Positions 21,354 through 28,734 of a stretch of 35,809 nt of DNA are shown here, in pieces. This stretch comes from Spirochaetaceae bacterium (lineage in GTDB: Bacteria; Spirochaetota; Spirochaetia; DSM-2461): the NCBI GenBank assembly GCA_016744925.1, contig JADGDJ010000021.1, positions 1-35,809 of the forward strand, in the 5' to 3' direction. Positions within the stretch are counted from its first letter, which is position 1. Each line of letters opens with the position of its first letter. The notes under the pieces are model-generated. The model saw only the letters and a program-made list of their open reading frames with translations. It did not search any database and had not been told where the DNA came from. Made by a program: the position numbers and the translations under genes.

Positions 21354-21382
21354 TTGACCTCGTCAATAACTCATGCTAATCT
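21354..21382 (+). promoter_or_regulatory. Promoter of the ROK / amino-sugar operon
   Basis: TTGACC, 17 bases, then TAATCT: a good sigma-70 promoter. Transcription would begin near 21389, inside the perfect palindrome that follows. Confidence 0.7.
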
Positions 21383-21385
21383 TAG

Positions 21386-21405
21386 TTTGTTGTAATTACA
21401 ACAAA
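21386..21405. promoter_or_regulatory. Perfect 20-bp operator-like palindrome for the ROK regulator
   Basis: TTTGTTGTAATTACAACAAA is completely symmetric and overlaps the predicted transcription start. ROK repressors of the NagC/Mlc/XylR type bind AT-rich dyads of this size, so it is the probable autoregulatory and operon operator. Confidence 0.65.
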
Positions 21406-21430
21406 TATTTGTAGGAGTTTCTTCATAAAG

Positions 21431-22543
21431 ATGGCTAATCAACAAAAATCGGACAATATAATTAAGGTTCTGGAAACCTTATGGAGTACCAAAGGCGCAA
21501 GTCGTGCCGAAATTGCCAGAGCCATCAGGGTAGACCGATCCACAGTTGGAGCCATCGCTGAAACTTTATTAAGAAAAAACTTTGCTTATGAGAAAAGCGG
21601 ATCTATCAATGCGGGAAACACAGGACGCCCTCCTGTGATTCTTCAGTTAAATGATCTTTTCGCTTATACCATAGGCATTGAAATTTCCGCCGACCTGATC
21701 CATGTGAAAGCATCTGGGTATTGCGGAAACATCCTCTTCGAAAAGGAACTTCAGAAAAAAGCAGATTCTGACCGGCTGGATGATCTTTTTATCTCAATAA
21801 TTAAAAAAACTGAAAAAGAGTTAAAAGGTAAAACACAATTGGGATTGCAGGCTGTCGTCATTGCAGTCAGTGGAATAGTCAGCAGAGAAAAAGGGAGCAT
21901 TTTGGCGAGTTCTGATTTGGGAATCAGAAGGGAATACGCTCTAGCTCAAATTGTTGAAAAAGCCGTTTCCGCTCCTGTGTGGATTCTCAATGATGCTGAT
22001 TCATGTGCACTGGGAGAACAACTTTATGGAGATAGTACACTAAAAGATTTTCTTTTTGTTCTCGTTAATAAAAGAATAAAAAATAGCCCGCCAGCTATCA
22101 ATGCGGGACTGGGAATCATTCTCGACGGCAATCTGAGAGAAGCCCACTCGGGTCGTGGGAGGGAATTTAGAAGCCCTCTTCTAGCACCGGATTCATCATC
22201 ACAATTCCTGGCGGCAGAACAGCTTCTGCAAGAAATGATATCACCGGAACAAGCCTGGAAAAATTTTATAAATGAATTAGGCTTAACATTGGCTTTCCTT
22301 GTTCACGCTTTAGATATTGAACACATTATACTCGGTGGAGATGCTGCAGGAGATGACTTTAAACTCTTCTCTGAAAGAGTTAGCTACCATGTAAATCATA
22401 ATACGGGAATATACGAAAGAGTTCCTGTAATTCTGAAGAAACCTACTGCCGGCTCTAGGCCTGTTGCCTATGGCGCTTCTGCCGCTGCTGTTAAATTACT
22501 GTTTCAGACAAGGCGGTTTTCAATTGAGAATATTGGTGTCTGA
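21431..22543 (+). CDS. ROK-family transcriptional regulator (NagC/XylR type)
   Basis: A 370-residue regulator. The N-terminal winged helix is SRAEIARAIRVDRSTVGAIAETLLRKNFAYEKSG (about 24-57), followed by a GRPP linker and the ROK fold (GIEISADLIHVKASG; VIAVSGIVSREKGSILASSDLG). The zinc motif CxCGxxGC of active ROK kinases is missing, as is the usual catalytic VEND pattern (it reads LNDADSCALG), so it should sense a sugar without phosphorylating it. GTAGGAG stands upstream of ATG. It heads the operon with a binding protein, two permeases, GH20 and NamZ-like genes, with a palindrome over its promoter. The effector is probably GlcNAc, MurNAc or a phosphorylated form. Confidence 0.9.
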   Translation: MANQQKSDNIIKVLETLWSTKGASRAEIARAIRVDRSTVGAIAETLLRKNFAYEKSGSINAGNTGRPPVILQLNDLFAYTIGIEISADLIHVKASGYCGNILFEKELQKKADSDRLDDLFISIIKKTEKELKGKTQLGLQAVVIAVSGIVSREKGSILASSDLGIRREYALAQIVEKAVSAPVWILNDADSCALGEQLYGDSTLKDFLFVLVNKRIKNSPPAINAGLGIILDGNLREAHSGRGREFRSPLLAPDSSSQFLAAEQLLQEMISPEQAWKNFINELGLTLAFLVHALDIEHIILGGDAAGDDFKLFSERVSYHVNHNTGIYERVPVILKKPTAGSRPVAYGASAAAVKLLFQTRRFSIENIGV

Positions 22544-22568
22544 CACCATATAAATAACGGAGGAATAT

Positions 22569-23792
22569 ATGAAAAAAATGTTTTTTGCATGCCTGATGGT
22601 TCTGCTAGTATTTTCAGTATCGGCTGGTGGAGCCACTGAAGAAACTCCAGATAAACTGGTTTATCTCACACCGGCCTGGGGAGCTCCATCCGATGAAATT
22701 GTAGCAGCATTCGAAGCGGAAACAGGAATAAAGCTGGAAGTGGCAACGATAGATATCGAAGGATCCAGAAACCGGGTTTTAACAGCAGCAGCCGGGAAAA
22801 CCAATCCGGCAGATGTAATTTTTGTCAGTGCTGATACATATTCAACTTTTCAGAGTGCTGGTGCCATCCAATCTCTCGATAATCTGGCTGGAAAAGAAAT
22901 GCTCGAGTCACTCACAGGAGTTGATCAGTTCATAATAGATAAAAGTCTTTGGGCCGTGCCTCTTTATCAACAGATGGTTATGCTAGACTACGACAAATCA
23001 GCTTTCGAAGCGATCGGAGTCTCAGTTGATGACATCACAACATGGGATGATTTTGAGAAAGCCCTTATGACTATGAAAGAAAAGGGACTTTACGAGTATC
23101 CCTATGCAGCGGGGATTCGTGCCTGGACCTGGTATATTACCGCTCTTTCTGCCGGATCAGATCTCTTTGATGAAGACAACAATCCACTTTTCGACGATCC
23201 CTCTGATCCCGGATACAAAGCATTCGAAAGAGTTCTCGGATTCTACAAAAAGGGCTTAATTTCCCCGGAGAGACTCAGTTCTCCCAACCCTCACCCCTCA
23301 TTCTGGTCCGGTCAGGCAGCAGTTCATCAGGCATGGCAGGGAAGTCTTGGAATTGCCAATAATGCAGAAAAAAGCCAGGTTGCTCCCAATGGTGCCTACC
23401 TTGTATTCCCCGAAGAGGGCAACACCTGGTTGCTTCCAGCCGGTTTAACCATCAGCAGTTTTACTGACTATCCAGAAGCATCAATGAAACTCGTCGATTT
23501 TCTTACAAAAGACATGATGCAGAGACACCTTTTCTCTGCCAACGGACTCTTTCCTGCAAATCTCGACACTTTTGCAGCTCTCGGTAATGAAAACGCTATA
23601 GAAGGTTACGAAGAAATGGCTGAACAGGGAAAACACATTGTGTCTCTCCCCTACGATCAGCCATGGTACATAGAATTTGAAAAAGAAGTAGAACAATCTA
23701 TGCTCAGGGTAGCCAGAGGCGACCAGAGTACTGCTGCAGCTCTCAAAGAGCTGGGAAATTTCGCAAGAGATTTAAAAGCTGAATACGAATAA
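22569..23792 (+). CDS. Sugar ABC importer substrate-binding protein (CUT1 type)
   Basis: A 407-residue family-1 solute-binding protein with a signal peptide (MKKMFFACLMVLLVFSVSA) and no lipobox Cys at the cleavage site, unlike the other two binding proteins here. Mature features are EIVAAFEAETGIKLEV, NPADVIFVSADTYSTFQSAGAIQSLD, DYDKSAFEAIGVS...TTWDDFEKAL and WSGQAAVHQAWQGSLG, which place it with oligosaccharide binding proteins. GGAGG precedes the ATG. It follows the ROK gene by 25 bases. No ATPase gene is in the operon, so a shared MsmK/UgpC-type ATPase must serve it. Likely ligand: amino-sugar disaccharides or muropeptide sugars, by context. Confidence 0.88.
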   Translation: MKKMFFACLMVLLVFSVSAGGATEETPDKLVYLTPAWGAPSDEIVAAFEAETGIKLEVATIDIEGSRNRVLTAAAGKTNPADVIFVSADTYSTFQSAGAIQSLDNLAGKEMLESLTGVDQFIIDKSLWAVPLYQQMVMLDYDKSAFEAIGVSVDDITTWDDFEKALMTMKEKGLYEYPYAAGIRAWTWYITALSAGSDLFDEDNNPLFDDPSDPGYKAFERVLGFYKKGLISPERLSSPNPHPSFWSGQAAVHQAWQGSLGIANNAEKSQVAPNGAYLVFPEEGNTWLLPAGLTISSFTDYPEASMKLVDFLTKDMMQRHLFSANGLFPANLDTFAALGNENAIEGYEEMAEQGKHIVSLPYDQPWYIEFEKEVEQSMLRVARGDQSTAAALKELGNFARDLKAEYE

Positions 23793-23800
23793 TTAACAAT

Positions 23801-23832
23801 CCGGCATTTCTCACAATAAAGAGAAGTGCCGG
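23801..23832 (+). terminator. Stem-loop after the sugar-binding-protein gene
   Basis: CCGGCATTTCTC and GAGAAGTGCCGG form a 12-bp stem (one G-U pair) with an 8-nt loop, followed by TTCTCATTT. The weak U-run suggests transcript stabilisation or partial termination before the permease genes. Confidence 0.65.
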
Positions 23833-23857
23833 TTCTCATTTAAAGGAAATAAATACA

Positions 23858-24754
23858 ATGAAAAATATGAACCTCAGATCTTGGCTTGATGATGAGAAAC
23901 ACCTGGCCTATGTGATTCTGATTCCCGCTATTTCACTGATTTTGACTTTCGGACATATTCCGGCACTCTCATCATTGAGATTGGCTTTTATGAAATACAA
24001 TATTAAAATGCCCGGAAAAATAGGCTATATAGGATTTGAAAATTTTGTCCATGTATTGACTGATCCCGATTTCCACGCATCTTTACTGAGAGTTCTTTTT
24101 TTCTTAATCTGTTCATTATTTCTTGTCTTAGCCATTGCGTTGATATTCTCCCTTCTTCTCAATCAGGAATTCAAAGGCCTCGGTTTGATCCGAACAATAG
24201 TGATCGTGCCATGGGCTATTCCTCCTGTCGTTTCGGGACATATGTGGAAATGGATTTTCAATGGTGAGTTCGGAGTTTTTAACGGTCTGCTGTTCCAGAT
24301 GGGAATCATAGAAGAATATCATTTCTGGTTAACCGGTCAAATCCCAGCCCTTCTTATCGCCTCGCTGATTTTTGTCTGGCGTTTTGTTCCTTTCGTAACA
24401 ATCCTTTTTCTCGGAGTGCTCCAGTCCATTCCGAAAGATATTTATGAAAGTGCATCTGTCGATGGAGCCGGTATAATAAGGCGTTTTACAGCAATCACAT
24501 TGCCTTCGCTTATGACAATAGGAGCTATAGCTATAGTCCTAACCGCCATAGCCGGTTTCAATGTTTTTGATGAAATATTTGCATTGATGGGATCTCAGGA
24601 AATAACTCAGACACCTATGATATATAACTATGAAACGACATTTATTATGGGCCGTTTCGGCAGAGGAGCTGCCATGGCCTATCTGACAGGACTCATACTA
24701 TTCTGTTTTTCATTTGTATATATGCGCATGTCACTCAAGGAGCAGGATGTATGA
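23858..24754 (+). CDS. Sugar ABC permease, MalF-like
   Basis: A 298-residue CUT1 permease with six helices. The N-terminal part HLAYVILIPAISLILTFGHIPALSSLRLAFMKYNI and the EAA loop YESASVDGAGIIRRFTAITLPSLMTIGAIAIVLT are typical of the MalF/UgpA side. AAAGGA lies upstream of ATG. The stop overlaps the next start in ATGA. Pairs with the following MalG-like protein. No ATPase is encoded nearby. Confidence 0.9.
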   Translation: MKNMNLRSWLDDEKHLAYVILIPAISLILTFGHIPALSSLRLAFMKYNIKMPGKIGYIGFENFVHVLTDPDFHASLLRVLFFLICSLFLVLAIALIFSLLLNQEFKGLGLIRTIVIVPWAIPPVVSGHMWKWIFNGEFGVFNGLLFQMGIIEEYHFWLTGQIPALLIASLIFVWRFVPFVTILFLGVLQSIPKDIYESASVDGAGIIRRFTAITLPSLMTIGAIAIVLTAIAGFNVFDEIFALMGSQEITQTPMIYNYETTFIMGRFGRGAAMAYLTGLILFCFSFVYMRMSLKEQDV

Positions 24755-25623
24755 TTTCAAAAAGAAAGACTCTTCAGACGGCCATTATATACAGCCTGTC
24801 ACTGATTCTGCTGCTTTGGAGCCTCAGCCCCATTATATGGATTTTCATTTCATCCATTTCATCGAGAGCGGATTTGTATTCTGTCCCTCCCCAATGGTTC
24901 CCGTCAAACCCGACATTGAAGGCTTACAATACAGTTCTGGTCGAAGGTGAGGGATTCAGAGGCGGTGGAGGGCAGTCGGCGTCAACACTTATTAGAACAG
25001 GACTATTTAACTCTATAATTATCGCTTCCTGCACGACTTTACTGGTTATGGCAGTAGCCCCGCTACTCGGTTATGTCTTCGGAAGGCTTCGCTTTCCCGG
25101 AAGGAATTTCTTCTTCTATCTGATTCTGGCTCTTATAGCCCTTCCCGGCTGGCCGATCATTATAGGACTTTTCCCCATGATGGCCACTCTGAAACTACTC
25201 GATACGAAACTAGGGCTGATCCTTTTACTCTTTACCTACAGGATCCCCTTTGAGATGTGGTTCATGACAGGTTATTTCCGCTCGGTTCCTTCAGAGATAG
25301 AAGAAGCCGCGAGAATAGACGGATGTACCAGGTTGGAGGCTCTGTATAAAATCATTATCCATATGGTCAAACCCGGCATTATTTCAGTTTCTATAATATC
25401 TTTTCTCCACTCGTGGAATACATTCCTCATCCCTTTAATCATGGCCTACACACTACAATCAAAACCGCTTACTGTGACCATTACAGAGTTCGTCGGCCAG
25501 TATTTTGTACAGTGGGAACTCATGTCAGCCGCAACAGTTATTGCGATCATTCCCCCGGTTATTATGGTGGGAATCTTTCAAAAATACATCATAAAAGGAC
25601 TCTCTGCCGGTGCAATCAAATAA
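24751..25623 (+). CDS. Sugar ABC permease, MalG-like
   Basis: A 290-residue CUT1 permease. It opens with ISKRKTLQTAIIYSLSLILLLWSLSPIIWIFISSIS, carries PPQWFPSNPTLKAYNTVL as MalG-type proteins do, and has the EAA loop EIEEAARIDGCTRLEALYKIIIHMVKPGIISVSIISFL. It overlaps the MalF-like gene by four bases and the GH20 gene by fourteen, so the three are tightly coupled. Confidence 0.9.
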   Translation: MISKRKTLQTAIIYSLSLILLLWSLSPIIWIFISSISSRADLYSVPPQWFPSNPTLKAYNTVLVEGEGFRGGGGQSASTLIRTGLFNSIIIASCTTLLVMAVAPLLGYVFGRLRFPGRNFFFYLILALIALPGWPIIIGLFPMMATLKLLDTKLGLILLLFTYRIPFEMWFMTGYFRSVPSEIEEAARIDGCTRLEALYKIIIHMVKPGIISVSIISFLHSWNTFLIPLIMAYTLQSKPLTVTITEFVGQYFVQWELMSAATVIAIIPPVIMVGIFQKYIIKGLSAGAIK

Positions 25624-27457
25624 AAATTCCCGGAGCAGAGCTCCGAGGTATTCTGGCCCGCCGAATAAACTATCCGACATGCTCGGTGATATCCCTTTTT
25701 CTCCGATCCGTATAGTCGATGATTCTTCGGGGTTCTGGAAATGCTCGGAGCCGGATTTAAAGAAATATACTTTAGGCGACCAGCTCCCTGAAAAAACATC
25801 ATTGAGGATAGGAGAGAACCCCGGTCTTTTAAAGTTGGGATATGATTCTTTCAGCATGAAAATTACACCGGAGGAAACACAAATCCTTGGTACGAATGAG
25901 AGGAGTTCTGTATATGCCATCAGGCTTCTGGGGGAATTTGCCACAATGGGTGGTGGAGAAGTCCCAACAGGGATAATTGAAGATGGATCCGTGATTGAAG
26001 ATCGCGGCTATATGCTCGATGTGAGTAGAGGAAGGATTCCCCGAAAACATCAATTCATCCGTCTTCTCGACTATTTAAGTCTGCTGCGCTACAACCATCT
26101 TGAGCTGTATTTTGAGCACACCTTTGCCTATAAAAACCATGAAACAGTGTGGAAAGACTGGTCCCCTCTTAGCTCTGAAGACATTATTTTTCTTGACAGA
26201 GAATGCCGGATTCGTGGGATAGAGCTGGTTCCCAATCAAAATTCATTCGGTCATATGCGTACATGGCTGGAACACAAAGAGTACAAACATCTTGCTGAAT
26301 GTCCCGAAGGATTTGAAGATCCCTGGGGATCATGGAGAGACTACCCCTTCTCATTTTCACCTGTTGAACCGGAAGTATTCACACTTCTCGAAGAACTCTA
26401 TGATGAATTACTCCCCCATTTTTCAAGTACCCGTTTTAATGTTGGTCTCGACGAAACCTTCGACCTTTCCCAGGGAAAAAGCAAACAGCTCTGTGATGTA
26501 TCGGGAAAAGGAAGAGTCTATCTCGACTACCTGAAACAAGTGCACCAGATGGTAAATAATAGGAATCACAAAATGCTCTTCTGGGGAGACATAATCCAAA
26601 ACCATGAAGAACTGGTAGACGAACTCCCTCCCGAAGTTACCGCCGTGGAATGGGGATATGAGGATGATCATGATTTTGACGGACGAAGCCGCAAACTAAA
26701 AGAGAATAGAATAGAATTTATCAACGCTCCGGGAACCTCGCTTTGGAACACGGCAGCCGGTCGCTACAACATAGCTTGTAAAAACATTGACATCGCTGTC
26801 GATGCCTTGGAAAAATATGAAGGGACTGGTCTATTGCTAACCGATTGGGGCGACAATGGACACATCCCTCCCCCCGATTTATCCTGGCCTCTAATTGCCT
26901 ATTCAGCCTTCAGAAGCTGGCAGGGAATAGAGTTGGAAATTAAGAATCCGGTTCGTTGGTATTTAAAGTCCATTCTATTGGCTGAACCGGAACAGATTGG
27001 ACAATTGGAAAATATTTATTTGCACATATCCAATCTCGATGAAATGGCCGGCAGTAAGATTATGAACGGTTCCGTTTTATGTACGGCTCTTTTTACTTTT
27101 GATACACCCAACGGGAAAGGGATTCTCGACAATTTACCTCAAGAGAAAATTGGTATTTTTGAAACTCTCATTGAGCAGACAAAAAAAGAACTCAATGAAT
27201 TGGAAGGTAATATGAGTCCCTCGCTGGAGAAATTTGTGGAGGATATCAGATTCGCCCTCTTGCTTGCCTCCTACGGCCTGGAAGCCTTAAAATGGCATAT
27301 GAACTGTGGTATTCCGGAAAAAATCCAAAATAAATACAGTGAATTAGAAGCAAAACTCAGAACTCTCTGGCATAGGGACTATAGAGATGGTGGATATGAC
27401 TTTTCTATATCACACCTCAATAAAATTGTACTTCACTCAAATAAACAGGAGAAATAA
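25610..27457 (+). CDS. GH20 beta-N-acetylhexosaminidase-like enzyme, cytoplasmic
   Basis: A 615-residue protein with a GH20b-like N-terminal part (LGYDSFSMKITPEETQILGTNERSSVYAIRLLGEF) and a GH20 catalytic barrel beginning at DRGYMLDVSRGRIP. FNVGLDETFD carries the Asp-Glu pair expected for substrate-assisted catalysis, and LVPNQNSFGHM and LLTDWGDNGH are further barrel motifs. There is no signal peptide, so it should act in the cytoplasm on imported oligosaccharides, removing non-reducing GlcNAc or GalNAc. The start is uncertain: GTG at 25610 has AAAGGA ten bases upstream and overlaps the permease; ATG at 25679 has no ribosome site. The stop is directly followed by the next ATG. A long C-terminal helical region (about 450-615) is of unknown role. 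Confidence 0.82.
   Translation: MQSNKNSRSRAPRYSGPPNKLSDMLGDIPFSPIRIVDDSSGFWKCSEPDLKKYTLGDQLPEKTSLRIGENPGLLKLGYDSFSMKITPEETQILGTNERSSVYAIRLLGEFATMGGGEVPTGIIEDGSVIEDRGYMLDVSRGRIPRKHQFIRLLDYLSLLRYNHLELYFEHTFAYKNHETVWKDWSPLSSEDIIFLDRECRIRGIELVPNQNSFGHMRTWLEHKEYKHLAECPEGFEDPWGSWRDYPFSFSPVEPEVFTLLEELYDELLPHFSSTRFNVGLDETFDLSQGKSKQLCDVSGKGRVYLDYLKQVHQMVNNRNHKMLFWGDIIQNHEELVDELPPEVTAVEWGYEDDHDFDGRSRKLKENRIEFINAPGTSLWNTAAGRYNIACKNIDIAVDALEKYEGTGLLLTDWGDNGHIPPPDLSWPLIAYSAFRSWQGIELEIKNPVRWYLKSILLAEPEQIGQLENIYLHISNLDEMAGSKIMNGSVLCTALFTFDTPNGKGILDNLPQEKIGIFETLIEQTKKELNELEGNMSPSLEKFVEDIRFALLLASYGLEALKWHMNCGIPEKIQNKYSELEAKLRTLWHRDYRDGGYDFSISHLNKIVLHSNKQEK
25631..25645 (+). repeat. Small hairpin at the permease-GH20 junction
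   Basis: CGGAGC-AGA-GCTCCG is a perfect 6-bp stem with a triloop just after the permease stop and inside the first codons of GH20 if GTG at 25610 is used. It could be a processing or translational control element. Confidence 0.4.
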
Positions 27458-28675
27458 ATGAACAAATTCAAATTTGGAATCGAAGTTTTAGAAGACAAAA
27501 AAGTACTCTTGTCTGGATTAAAAGACAAACGGATCGCTCTGCTGGGACATCCCGCTTCTGTTGATGCTCAGCTCAGTTCTTCTGTTCTCAGAATGAAAAA
27601 TCTCGCTACTAAATATAATTTCAATCTCTCAGCGCTCCTGGGACCACAACATGGATTCTACGGTGAAAAACAGGATAATATGATTGAAAGTGATGATTCG
27701 AAAGATGATTCGACTGGATTAAAAATATTCAGTCTCTATGGAACAACACGTAGGCTGACAGAAGAGATGATCGACTCATTCGATGTCTTGTTTATCGATT
27801 TACAGGATGTGGGTGTCCGTGTTTATACTTTCCTGACGACTCTCTGTTATATTTTAGAAGATTTGTCCCGATACAAAGGCAAATCAGTCATAGTTCTGGA
27901 TCGCCCCAACCCTACAGGCAGAGCGATGGAAGGTCTTATTCTAAAGGAGGGATGGGAGAGTTTTGTCGGAGTAACATCTGTCCCCATGCAGCACGGTTTG
28001 ACACTGGGGGAATTTGCCTTATGGTATAAGAATAAAAAATCTCTCCCAACGCTTCTCACCGTTGTTCCCATGGAGGGATATACTCCGGAAGATATAAAGA
28101 ATGCCTGGCCGAAAGAGCGGATTTGGGTTCAACCTAGCCCGAATATGCCTGCGCTGTACACTGCCAGACCCTATGCGGGAACTGTAATACTGGAGGGGAC
28201 AACTCTTTCTGAAGCCAGAGGAACAACAAGGCCACTTTCAATGCTAGGACATCCCCTGGTGAATTGGGATGCCGTTTTATATTGGTTGAAAAAGAATGCC
28301 TCAGAAGCCTTAAAGGGATGTTTTATCAGACAAGTTATATTTCAACCGACTTTTCACAAACACGCCGGTATTCCGACTCCCGGTTTTGAAATTATTACAG
28401 AAGGTGAATTTTACAATCCTTCCCTTTTTAAACCCTATCTTCTTATTTCTGCAATATTAAAAGCCATCCATCAGCTCCAGCCGGAACTGGAATTATGGAC
28501 AACTCCTCCCTATGAGTATGAATATGAAAAAACACCTGTAGATGTCATAACCGGAGGGACAACATTCAGAGAATGGGTAGAATCTGAGAAATCAACCATA
28601 GGCGAAATGTCAGAGTGGATTGATCGGGATATTAAAAAATGGAAAGATGATGTCAAAATATATTATCTTTATTGA
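27458..28675 (+). CDS. namZ: DUF1343 / NamZ-like exo-N-acetylmuramidase (GH171), cytoplasmic
   Basis: A 405-residue protein with the DUF1343 signature blocks: FIDLQDVGVRVYTFLTTL, VLDRPNPTGR, VPMQHGLTLGEFALWY, WVQPSPNMPALYTARPYAGTVILEGTTLSEARGTTRPLSMLGHP. This family includes Bacillus NamZ (YbbC), which removes non-reducing MurNAc from peptidoglycan fragments. Bacillus NamZ is secreted, but this protein starts MNKFKFGIEVLEDKK with no signal peptide, so it should act inside the cell. AGGAG precedes the ATG, which follows the GH20 TAA with no gap. The paired GH20 and GH171 activities would remove GlcNAc and MurNAc alternately. Deviation: EGTTLSEARGTTRPL replaces the usual EGTNLSEGRGTTRPF. The symbol is by homology only. 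Confidence 0.85.
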   Translation: MNKFKFGIEVLEDKKVLLSGLKDKRIALLGHPASVDAQLSSSVLRMKNLATKYNFNLSALLGPQHGFYGEKQDNMIESDDSKDDSTGLKIFSLYGTTRRLTEEMIDSFDVLFIDLQDVGVRVYTFLTTLCYILEDLSRYKGKSVIVLDRPNPTGRAMEGLILKEGWESFVGVTSVPMQHGLTLGEFALWYKNKKSLPTLLTVVPMEGYTPEDIKNAWPKERIWVQPSPNMPALYTARPYAGTVILEGTTLSEARGTTRPLSMLGHPLVNWDAVLYWLKKNASEALKGCFIRQVIFQPTFHKHAGIPTPGFEIITEGEFYNPSLFKPYLLISAILKAIHQLQPELELWTTPPYEYEYEKTPVDVITGGTTFREWVESEKSTIGEMSEWIDRDIKKWKDDVKIYYLY

Positions 28676-28713
28676 GGCTTAATAAAATCGAGAATCAATT
28701 AACTTTTTCACAG

Positions 28714-28734
28714 GGGGGGCACAAACAGCCCCCT
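28714..28734 (+). terminator. Terminator-like hairpin ending the amino-sugar operon
   Basis: GGGGGC-ACAAACA-GCCCCC is a strong GC stem soon after the namZ-like stop (28675). The U-run afterwards is poor (TCTCATTTCC), so efficiency is uncertain. From here to 28863 I see no gene. Confidence 0.5.

Follow-up and report, generated by a model that had tools for sequence, protein, structure and literature searches.

Can a spirochaete take up the building blocks of bacterial cell walls intact and take them apart inside the cell? The question is raised by an operon of six genes on contig JADGDJ010000021.1 of a Spirochaetaceae bacterium (assembly GCA_016744925.1; the 35,809 nucleotides analysed are referred to as the window), in which a ROK-family regulator and a sugar ATP-binding cassette (ABC) importer precede a glycoside hydrolase of family GH20 and a relative of NamZ, a family GH171 (DUF1343) enzyme. 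We favour the reading that the operon imports small cell-wall sugars composed of N-acetylmuramic acid (MurNAc) and N-acetylglucosamine (GlcNAc) and splits them inside the cell, to which we assign a probability of about 0.6. Its core idea, the intracellular breakdown of imported MurNAc/GlcNAc sugars, is more probably right than wrong. The reading is well supported by genome comparison. The analysis shows the gene order, the protein families, the cytoplasmic location read from sequence, the conserved importer–NamZ core, an operator shared among relatives and the presence of a MurQ-like gene; the substrates, the sequence of cuts, control by ROK, the kinase and the ATPase are inferred.

All six open reading frames (ORFs) lie on the forward strand between positions 21431 and 28675, and their Pfam scores exceed the curated cut-offs, which confirms the gene set (ROK, importer, GH20, NamZ/DUF1343) named by an earlier interpretation made without database searches, hereafter the sequence-only reading. 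That reading placed the system at 21354-28734; the operon proper is shorter, with a palindrome ahead of it (Table 1). It also described six tightly coupled genes: the overlaps of 4 and 14 bases and the zero gap before namZ are real, but the successive intergenic gaps are 25, 65, −4, −14 and 0 bases, so that tight coupling is confined to the last four genes. A binding protein with a signal sequence and two permeases make up a sugar ABC importer; the PDB matches of the binding protein are weak and mixed, and do not indicate a substrate. Neither hydrolase has a hydrophobic N-terminus, and no shift of start could add a signal peptide, since the TAA that ends the GH20 gene stands in frame immediately before the NamZ ATG and another in-frame TAA lies six codons 5′ of the GH20 GTG; the claim that both enzymes lack a signal peptide thus survives start correction. 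In profile searches, the GH20 protein matches Glyco_hydro_20 (57.7 bits, cut-off 22.3) and its neighbor matches NamZ_N (220 bits, gathering threshold 26.9) and NamZ_C (100 bits, threshold 25), placing both in the proposed families, while the NCBIfam search returned no named family for either hydrolase. The stretch 21431-28675 encodes no kinase, etherase or MalK-type ATPase, again as had been read.

We then asked how close the NamZ-like protein is to its characterized relatives. Its AlphaFold2 model (predicted local distance difference test, pLDDT, of 96) has the fold of the Bacteroides fragilis DUF1343 proteins 4k05 and 4jja, the only solved family structures found, with template modeling (TM) scores of 0.82 (E = 3.6e-29) and 0.72, respectively, whereas the structural alignments give only 28 and 25% identity. 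At the site where both carry the motif PEHG, which is presumably also that of Bacillus subtilis NamZ, the window protein reads PQHGFYGEKQDNMIE. In an alignment of 101 rows, Gln64, Glu77 and a QDNM motif are kept in 72/72 PQHG rows; Glu64 is found in all 29 PEHG rows, where position 77 is mostly Val, Ile or Gly. QDNM was the bait of the genome scan that supplied most of these rows, the Spirochaetota rows being chosen otherwise, so the association of the glutamine with QDNM is in part a product of the sampling; only four rows of the Gln type come from Spirochaetota. All Gln rows fall in one clade (support 100/99), inside which the proteins of the window and of another spirochaete, G256, cluster with those of Bdellovibrionota and some Pseudomonadota. 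Six residues (H65, D114, D148, R149, E185 and E246) are strictly conserved and common to both branches. As judged from alignment and tree, the PQHG proteins are a subfamily separate from the PEHG branch, with Gln for Glu and an invariant new Glu, and the link from the window protein to the assayed NamZ is less direct than the sequence-only reading assumed. The glutamate of PEHG is reportedly discussed in the founding NamZ paper.

The neighborhoods of related genes in other spirochaetes indicate which parts of the operon travel together. A DUF1343 relative is present in 102 of 345 Spirochaetota genomes, and one with at least about 51% identity to the window's NamZ in only five genomes from two samples together (the window's own, G256, G414, G465 and G436). 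The operon has a patchy distribution, since a close NamZ orthologue is missing from all genomes listed for the window's genus or family. In G436, NamZ begins 36 bases behind an orthologous importer (binding protein 67%, permeases 65 and 72% identical), and no GH20 gene separates them. G414 and G465 share the order ROK, NamZ, GH3 NagZ (NF003740, 390 bits against a cut-off of 207), binding protein and permeases, with a GH20 gene on the opposite side of the ROK gene; the ROK protein of G414 is 36.5% identical to that of the window, the importers of both genomes are more distant from the window's than that of G436, and the G465 contig stops within the first permease. In G256, a NamZ of the window's clade adjoins a GH84 gene. 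The survey of gene order in spirochaetes suggested by the sequence-only reading thus recovers NamZ with an importer, a regulator or both, but not a constant GH20 partner. Because the same NamZ clade stands beside GH20, GH3 and GH84, which are unrelated families, NamZ is the constant part and its N-acetylglucosaminidase partner the one that switches family. In several spirochaetes, among them G250, G324, G326 and G338, canonical MurQ has a DUF1343 relative of lower identity nearby.

The steps absent from the operon had been expected elsewhere in the genome; a candidate etherase is present there, and no MurNAc kinase was found. The G414 NamZ locus encodes a 585-aa MurQ-like protein together with a GlcD-like flavin adenine dinucleotide (FAD) oxidase, and both gene types recur in G256, in a region that also carries a pair of NamZ genes of the PEHG type, canonical MurQ and a BadF-type kinase. 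As MurQ yields GlcNAc-6-phosphate and D-lactate (PMC5061867), a role of the GlcD-like gene in the G414 locus as a lactate oxidase would make sense. The genome of the window encodes a 586-aa MurQ-like protein, 50% identical to that of G414, on contig C167 behind another sugar importer; its 55-bit MurQ match had at one point been attributed to GlmS, an assignment withdrawn on reading the frame. This gene is rare (4/345 Spirochaetota genomes), and the four include both sampled genomes with a close NamZ; with G414, G465 and G436 added, four of the five close-NamZ genomes have it. By our own arithmetic, the two-of-two co-occurrence in the sample has a chance of about 1 in 10,000, a figure to be read with the relatedness of the genomes and the origin of the query, which came from such a locus. 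G360, from the window's family, carries ROK, binding protein, two permeases and the MurQ-like gene in a single operon resembling that on C167. NagA-like and NagB-like genes are also present in the genome of the window. As side observations, the G256 contig (L034, L035) carries, inside 30 kb, three DUF1343 genes that belong to two types, in a region that also holds MurQ, a double-length MurQ-like protein, a BadF kinase, a beta-lactamase-like gene and an epimerase, and in G163 (L158:8620-12291) a distant GH20-like gene lies ~50 bases 3′ of the MurQ-like gene; at the threshold applied, G163 has no NamZ.

The palindrome upstream of the ROK gene connects these loci. Over the 1.6 Mb compared, copies with up to four mismatches were found in the window, G414, G465 and G256. 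G414 and G465 each have one ahead of ROK-NamZ and one ahead of the MurQ-like gene, and G256 has a single copy; random sequence with the dinucleotide make-up of L146 and L147 gave no copy. The G256 site (L034:1043, seen in two overlapping loci) is within an ORF and was treated as chance. Since near copies precede both, the NamZ operon and the MurQ-like gene are tied together in these relatives. A five-mismatch copy also stands just 5′ of the importer/MurQ-like operon of G360 (0.11 expected); on C167, the upstream end of the corresponding operon is lost at the contig end.

Put together, these elements suggest the following route. The importer, energized by a putative ATPase encoded elsewhere, would bring in a small MurNAc-containing sugar (MurNAc-GlcNAc, GlcNAc-MurNAc or short chains). 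In the cytoplasm, the GH20 enzyme would remove β-GlcNAc and the NamZ-like GH171 protein β-MurNAc from non-reducing ends, from which we infer an alternating clipping of chains by the two. Free GlcNAc would pass to the NagA/NagB-like enzymes. MurNAc would first be phosphorylated by a putative kinase and then reach the MurQ-like etherase from the other contig; the ROK protein, as a repressor on the upstream palindrome, may control the operon. If this is true, spirochaetes can import intact cell-wall disaccharides and degrade them in the cytoplasm without a phosphotransferase system (PTS) or secreted enzymes, a large GH171 branch gains a role along with a testable change of a catalytic residue, and a candidate new form of etherase and a regulon motif become available for tracing the remaining kinase and transporter parts.

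The MurNAc cluster of B. subtilis is murQ-murR-murP-amiE-nagZ-ybbC (PMC5061867), and its NamZ (YbbC) is the founding GH171 enzyme (NamZ paper cited in PMC10936207). The window protein shares with this NamZ its sequence family and the link to an N-acetylglucosaminidase and MurNAc use. The window differs in having no signal peptide, an ABC importer for the MurP PTS, GH20 for the GH3 NagZ, ROK for MurR and PQHG for PEHG. The linkage of the B. subtilis type is divided, in that the window joins GH20 and NamZ with the MurQ-like gene on another contig, while G414 has MurQ-like, NagZ and NamZ in one locus.

Beyond spirochaetes, PQHG NamZ genes are often found near AmgK-MurU-like genes. In Nitrospirota, these are fused and overlap PQHG NamZ by 4 bases or nearly touch it; in Thermodesulfobacteriota, they lie 3.2-5.7 kb downstream. 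The members tested gave top or near-top scores to MurU and AmgK, under the curated cut-offs. They are similar to the AmgK-MurU salvage genes of Pseudomonas (PMC5371407), of which none was found in the window genome. Such neighbors suggest a role of PQHG NamZ in MurNAc salvage, and with the canonical MurQ neighbors they make the NamZ family as a whole point to MurNAc. A wider proposal, tentative and in our estimate somewhat short of even odds, is that PQHG proteins form a separate and widespread intracellular GH171 branch with a rebuilt active site (Gln64, invariant Glu77), which would release MurNAc from sugars that are either imported or recycled. In spirochaetes, this MurNAc would go to a double-length MurQ-like etherase, and in Nitrospirota and Thermodesulfobacteriota to AmgK-MurU-like salvage, while the partner enzyme could be GH20, GH84 or GH3 interchangeably, under a ROK regulon. 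Loci of this kind, with PQHG NamZ beside or a few kb before fused or paired AmgK-MurU-like genes, include L087, L090, L091, L094, L100, L069 and others among L038-L117.

Import and intracellular cutting of GlcNAc-MurNAc sugars, as put forward by the sequence-only reading, is partly supported: gene context, the MurQ-like gene and the operator speak for it, but several results weaken it. The window protein has Gln where the PEHG branch has Glu, and no published assay of the PQHG branch was found, which argues against a simple transfer of NamZ function. A cytoplasmic location alone is not new, and we dropped it as the trait that sets this layout apart: most NamZ homologues examined have no signal peptide, the N-terminus being non-hydrophobic, by simple hydropathy, in 70/72 PQHG and 21/27 PEHG rows. 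The MurQ-like proteins are twice as long as the MurNAc-6-phosphate etherase MurQ and below curated cut-offs, with 55 bits against 302 (TIGR00274) for the one of the window genome and 152 and 156 against 168 (NF003915), just under, for its relatives, MurQ being their best NCBIfam family; the protein could be a regulator of the glucokinase regulatory protein (GKRP) type instead of an etherase. In the window genome, no canonical MurQ above the cut-off was found, and no AmgK-MurU relative or BadF-type MurNAc kinase was recognized, its BadF-family matches looking like dehydratase activators by length and neighbors. The genome is a fragmented bin (413 contigs, 87% complete, 4.3% contamination), so that absences from it are weak evidence. 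That same contamination, together with the missing close NamZ in sampled members of the genus and family, is what could be said for genes assembled by chance or by faulty binning, with no pathway in this organism, an explanation that we consider very improbable since other spirochaetes also have orthologous NamZ operons that include ROK or importer, and G360 has the operon that resembles that on C167.

The GH20 enzyme opens another possibility, namely that it and the importer serve chitobiose or other GlcNAc oligosaccharides, with the NamZ-like protein in a side role or acting on an occasional co-substrate. Its best profile and fold matches, and nearest solved structures, are the streptococcal GH20C (Streptococcus pneumoniae) and GcnA (S. 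gordonii), yet identity over the aligned structures is about 15%, and the model has a pLDDT of only 72; several Trp residues are conserved across seven homologues, as is the catalytic pair. In G142, G049 and G006, homologues 34-38% identical belong to binding protein-permease-permease-GH20 operons that lack NamZ and, in G049 and G006, have a GH9-like gene downstream, an arrangement compatible with chito-oligosaccharides. However, the permeases of these operons are only 23-33% identical to those of the window, while the importer of G436, 65-72% identical, pairs with NamZ with no GH20 between, and we regard this alternative as unlikely. More doubtful still is that the PQHG subfamily is no exo-β-N-acetylmuramidase, acting on another acidic amino sugar or linkage or merely binding a sugar. 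The replacement of Glu by Gln is indeed complete, coupled with a new Glu and confined to a well-supported clade, and in Desulfobulbales (L072, L078, L082, L083, L095, L106, L108, L111 and relatives) PQHG NamZ lies between GlmS and LpxD-FabZ-LpxA, a setting of amino sugars and lipid A; but many other residues are strictly conserved with the PEHG branch, the fold is the same, and the neighbors include NagZ, MurQ-like and AmgK-MurU-like genes, all of which speaks against this alternative.

Table 1. Features of the operon and its upstream region (positions in the window)
Feature	Position	Strand	Basis or remark
Perfect 20-bp palindrome TTTGTTGTAATTACAACAAA, likely ROK operator	21386..21405	.	Ends 25 bases before ROK ATG
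ROK-family transcriptional regulator, 370 aa	21431..22543	+	Pfam ROK, 55 bits
Solute-binding protein of sugar ABC importer, 407 aa, signal sequence	22569..23792	+	SBP_bac_1, 105 bits
12-bp stem-loop, in 65-base gap between binding protein and first permease	23801..23832	+	
ABC permease 1 (MalF-like), 298 aa	23858..24754	+	BPD_transp_1, 33 bits
ABC permease 2 (MalG-like), 290 aa	24751..25623	+	BPD_transp_1, 58 bits
GH20 beta-N-acetylhexosaminidase, 615 aa, GTG start, no signal peptide, GH20C-like	25610..27457	+	Glyco_hydro_20
Codons of GH20 Asp281-Glu282 catalytic pair	26450..26455	+	Invariant in seven homologues
NamZ/GH171-family protein (DUF1343), PQHG subfamily, 405 aa, no signal peptide	27458..28675	+	Pfam
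Codons of NamZ residues 63-77 (PQHGFYGEKQDNMIE); Gln64 and Glu77 are the subfamily signature	27644..27688	+	Alignment

Some minor observations concern these families in other genomes. In L129 and L130, a sugar importer and a GH20 homologue are followed by a GH9-like gene (adjacent in L129, with one gene between in L130), an arrangement possibly serving chito-oligosaccharides. In ten Bdellovibrionota/Pseudomonadota loci of the window's NamZ clade (L038, L040, L042, L043, L044, L046, L056, L058, L059 and L061), a protein of ~180 aa is encoded directly upstream of NamZ; the one member scanned had no Pfam match. Finally, PEHG-type DUF1343 genes occur on haloarchaeal plasmids (L162, NZ_CP096661.1; L163, NZ_CP119799.1), whose hosts are without murein, and in L162 the gene stands beside NagZ, an anhydroMurNAc kinase and a peptidoglycan recognition protein, a set suggestive of scavenging of bacterial cell wall by an archaeon.

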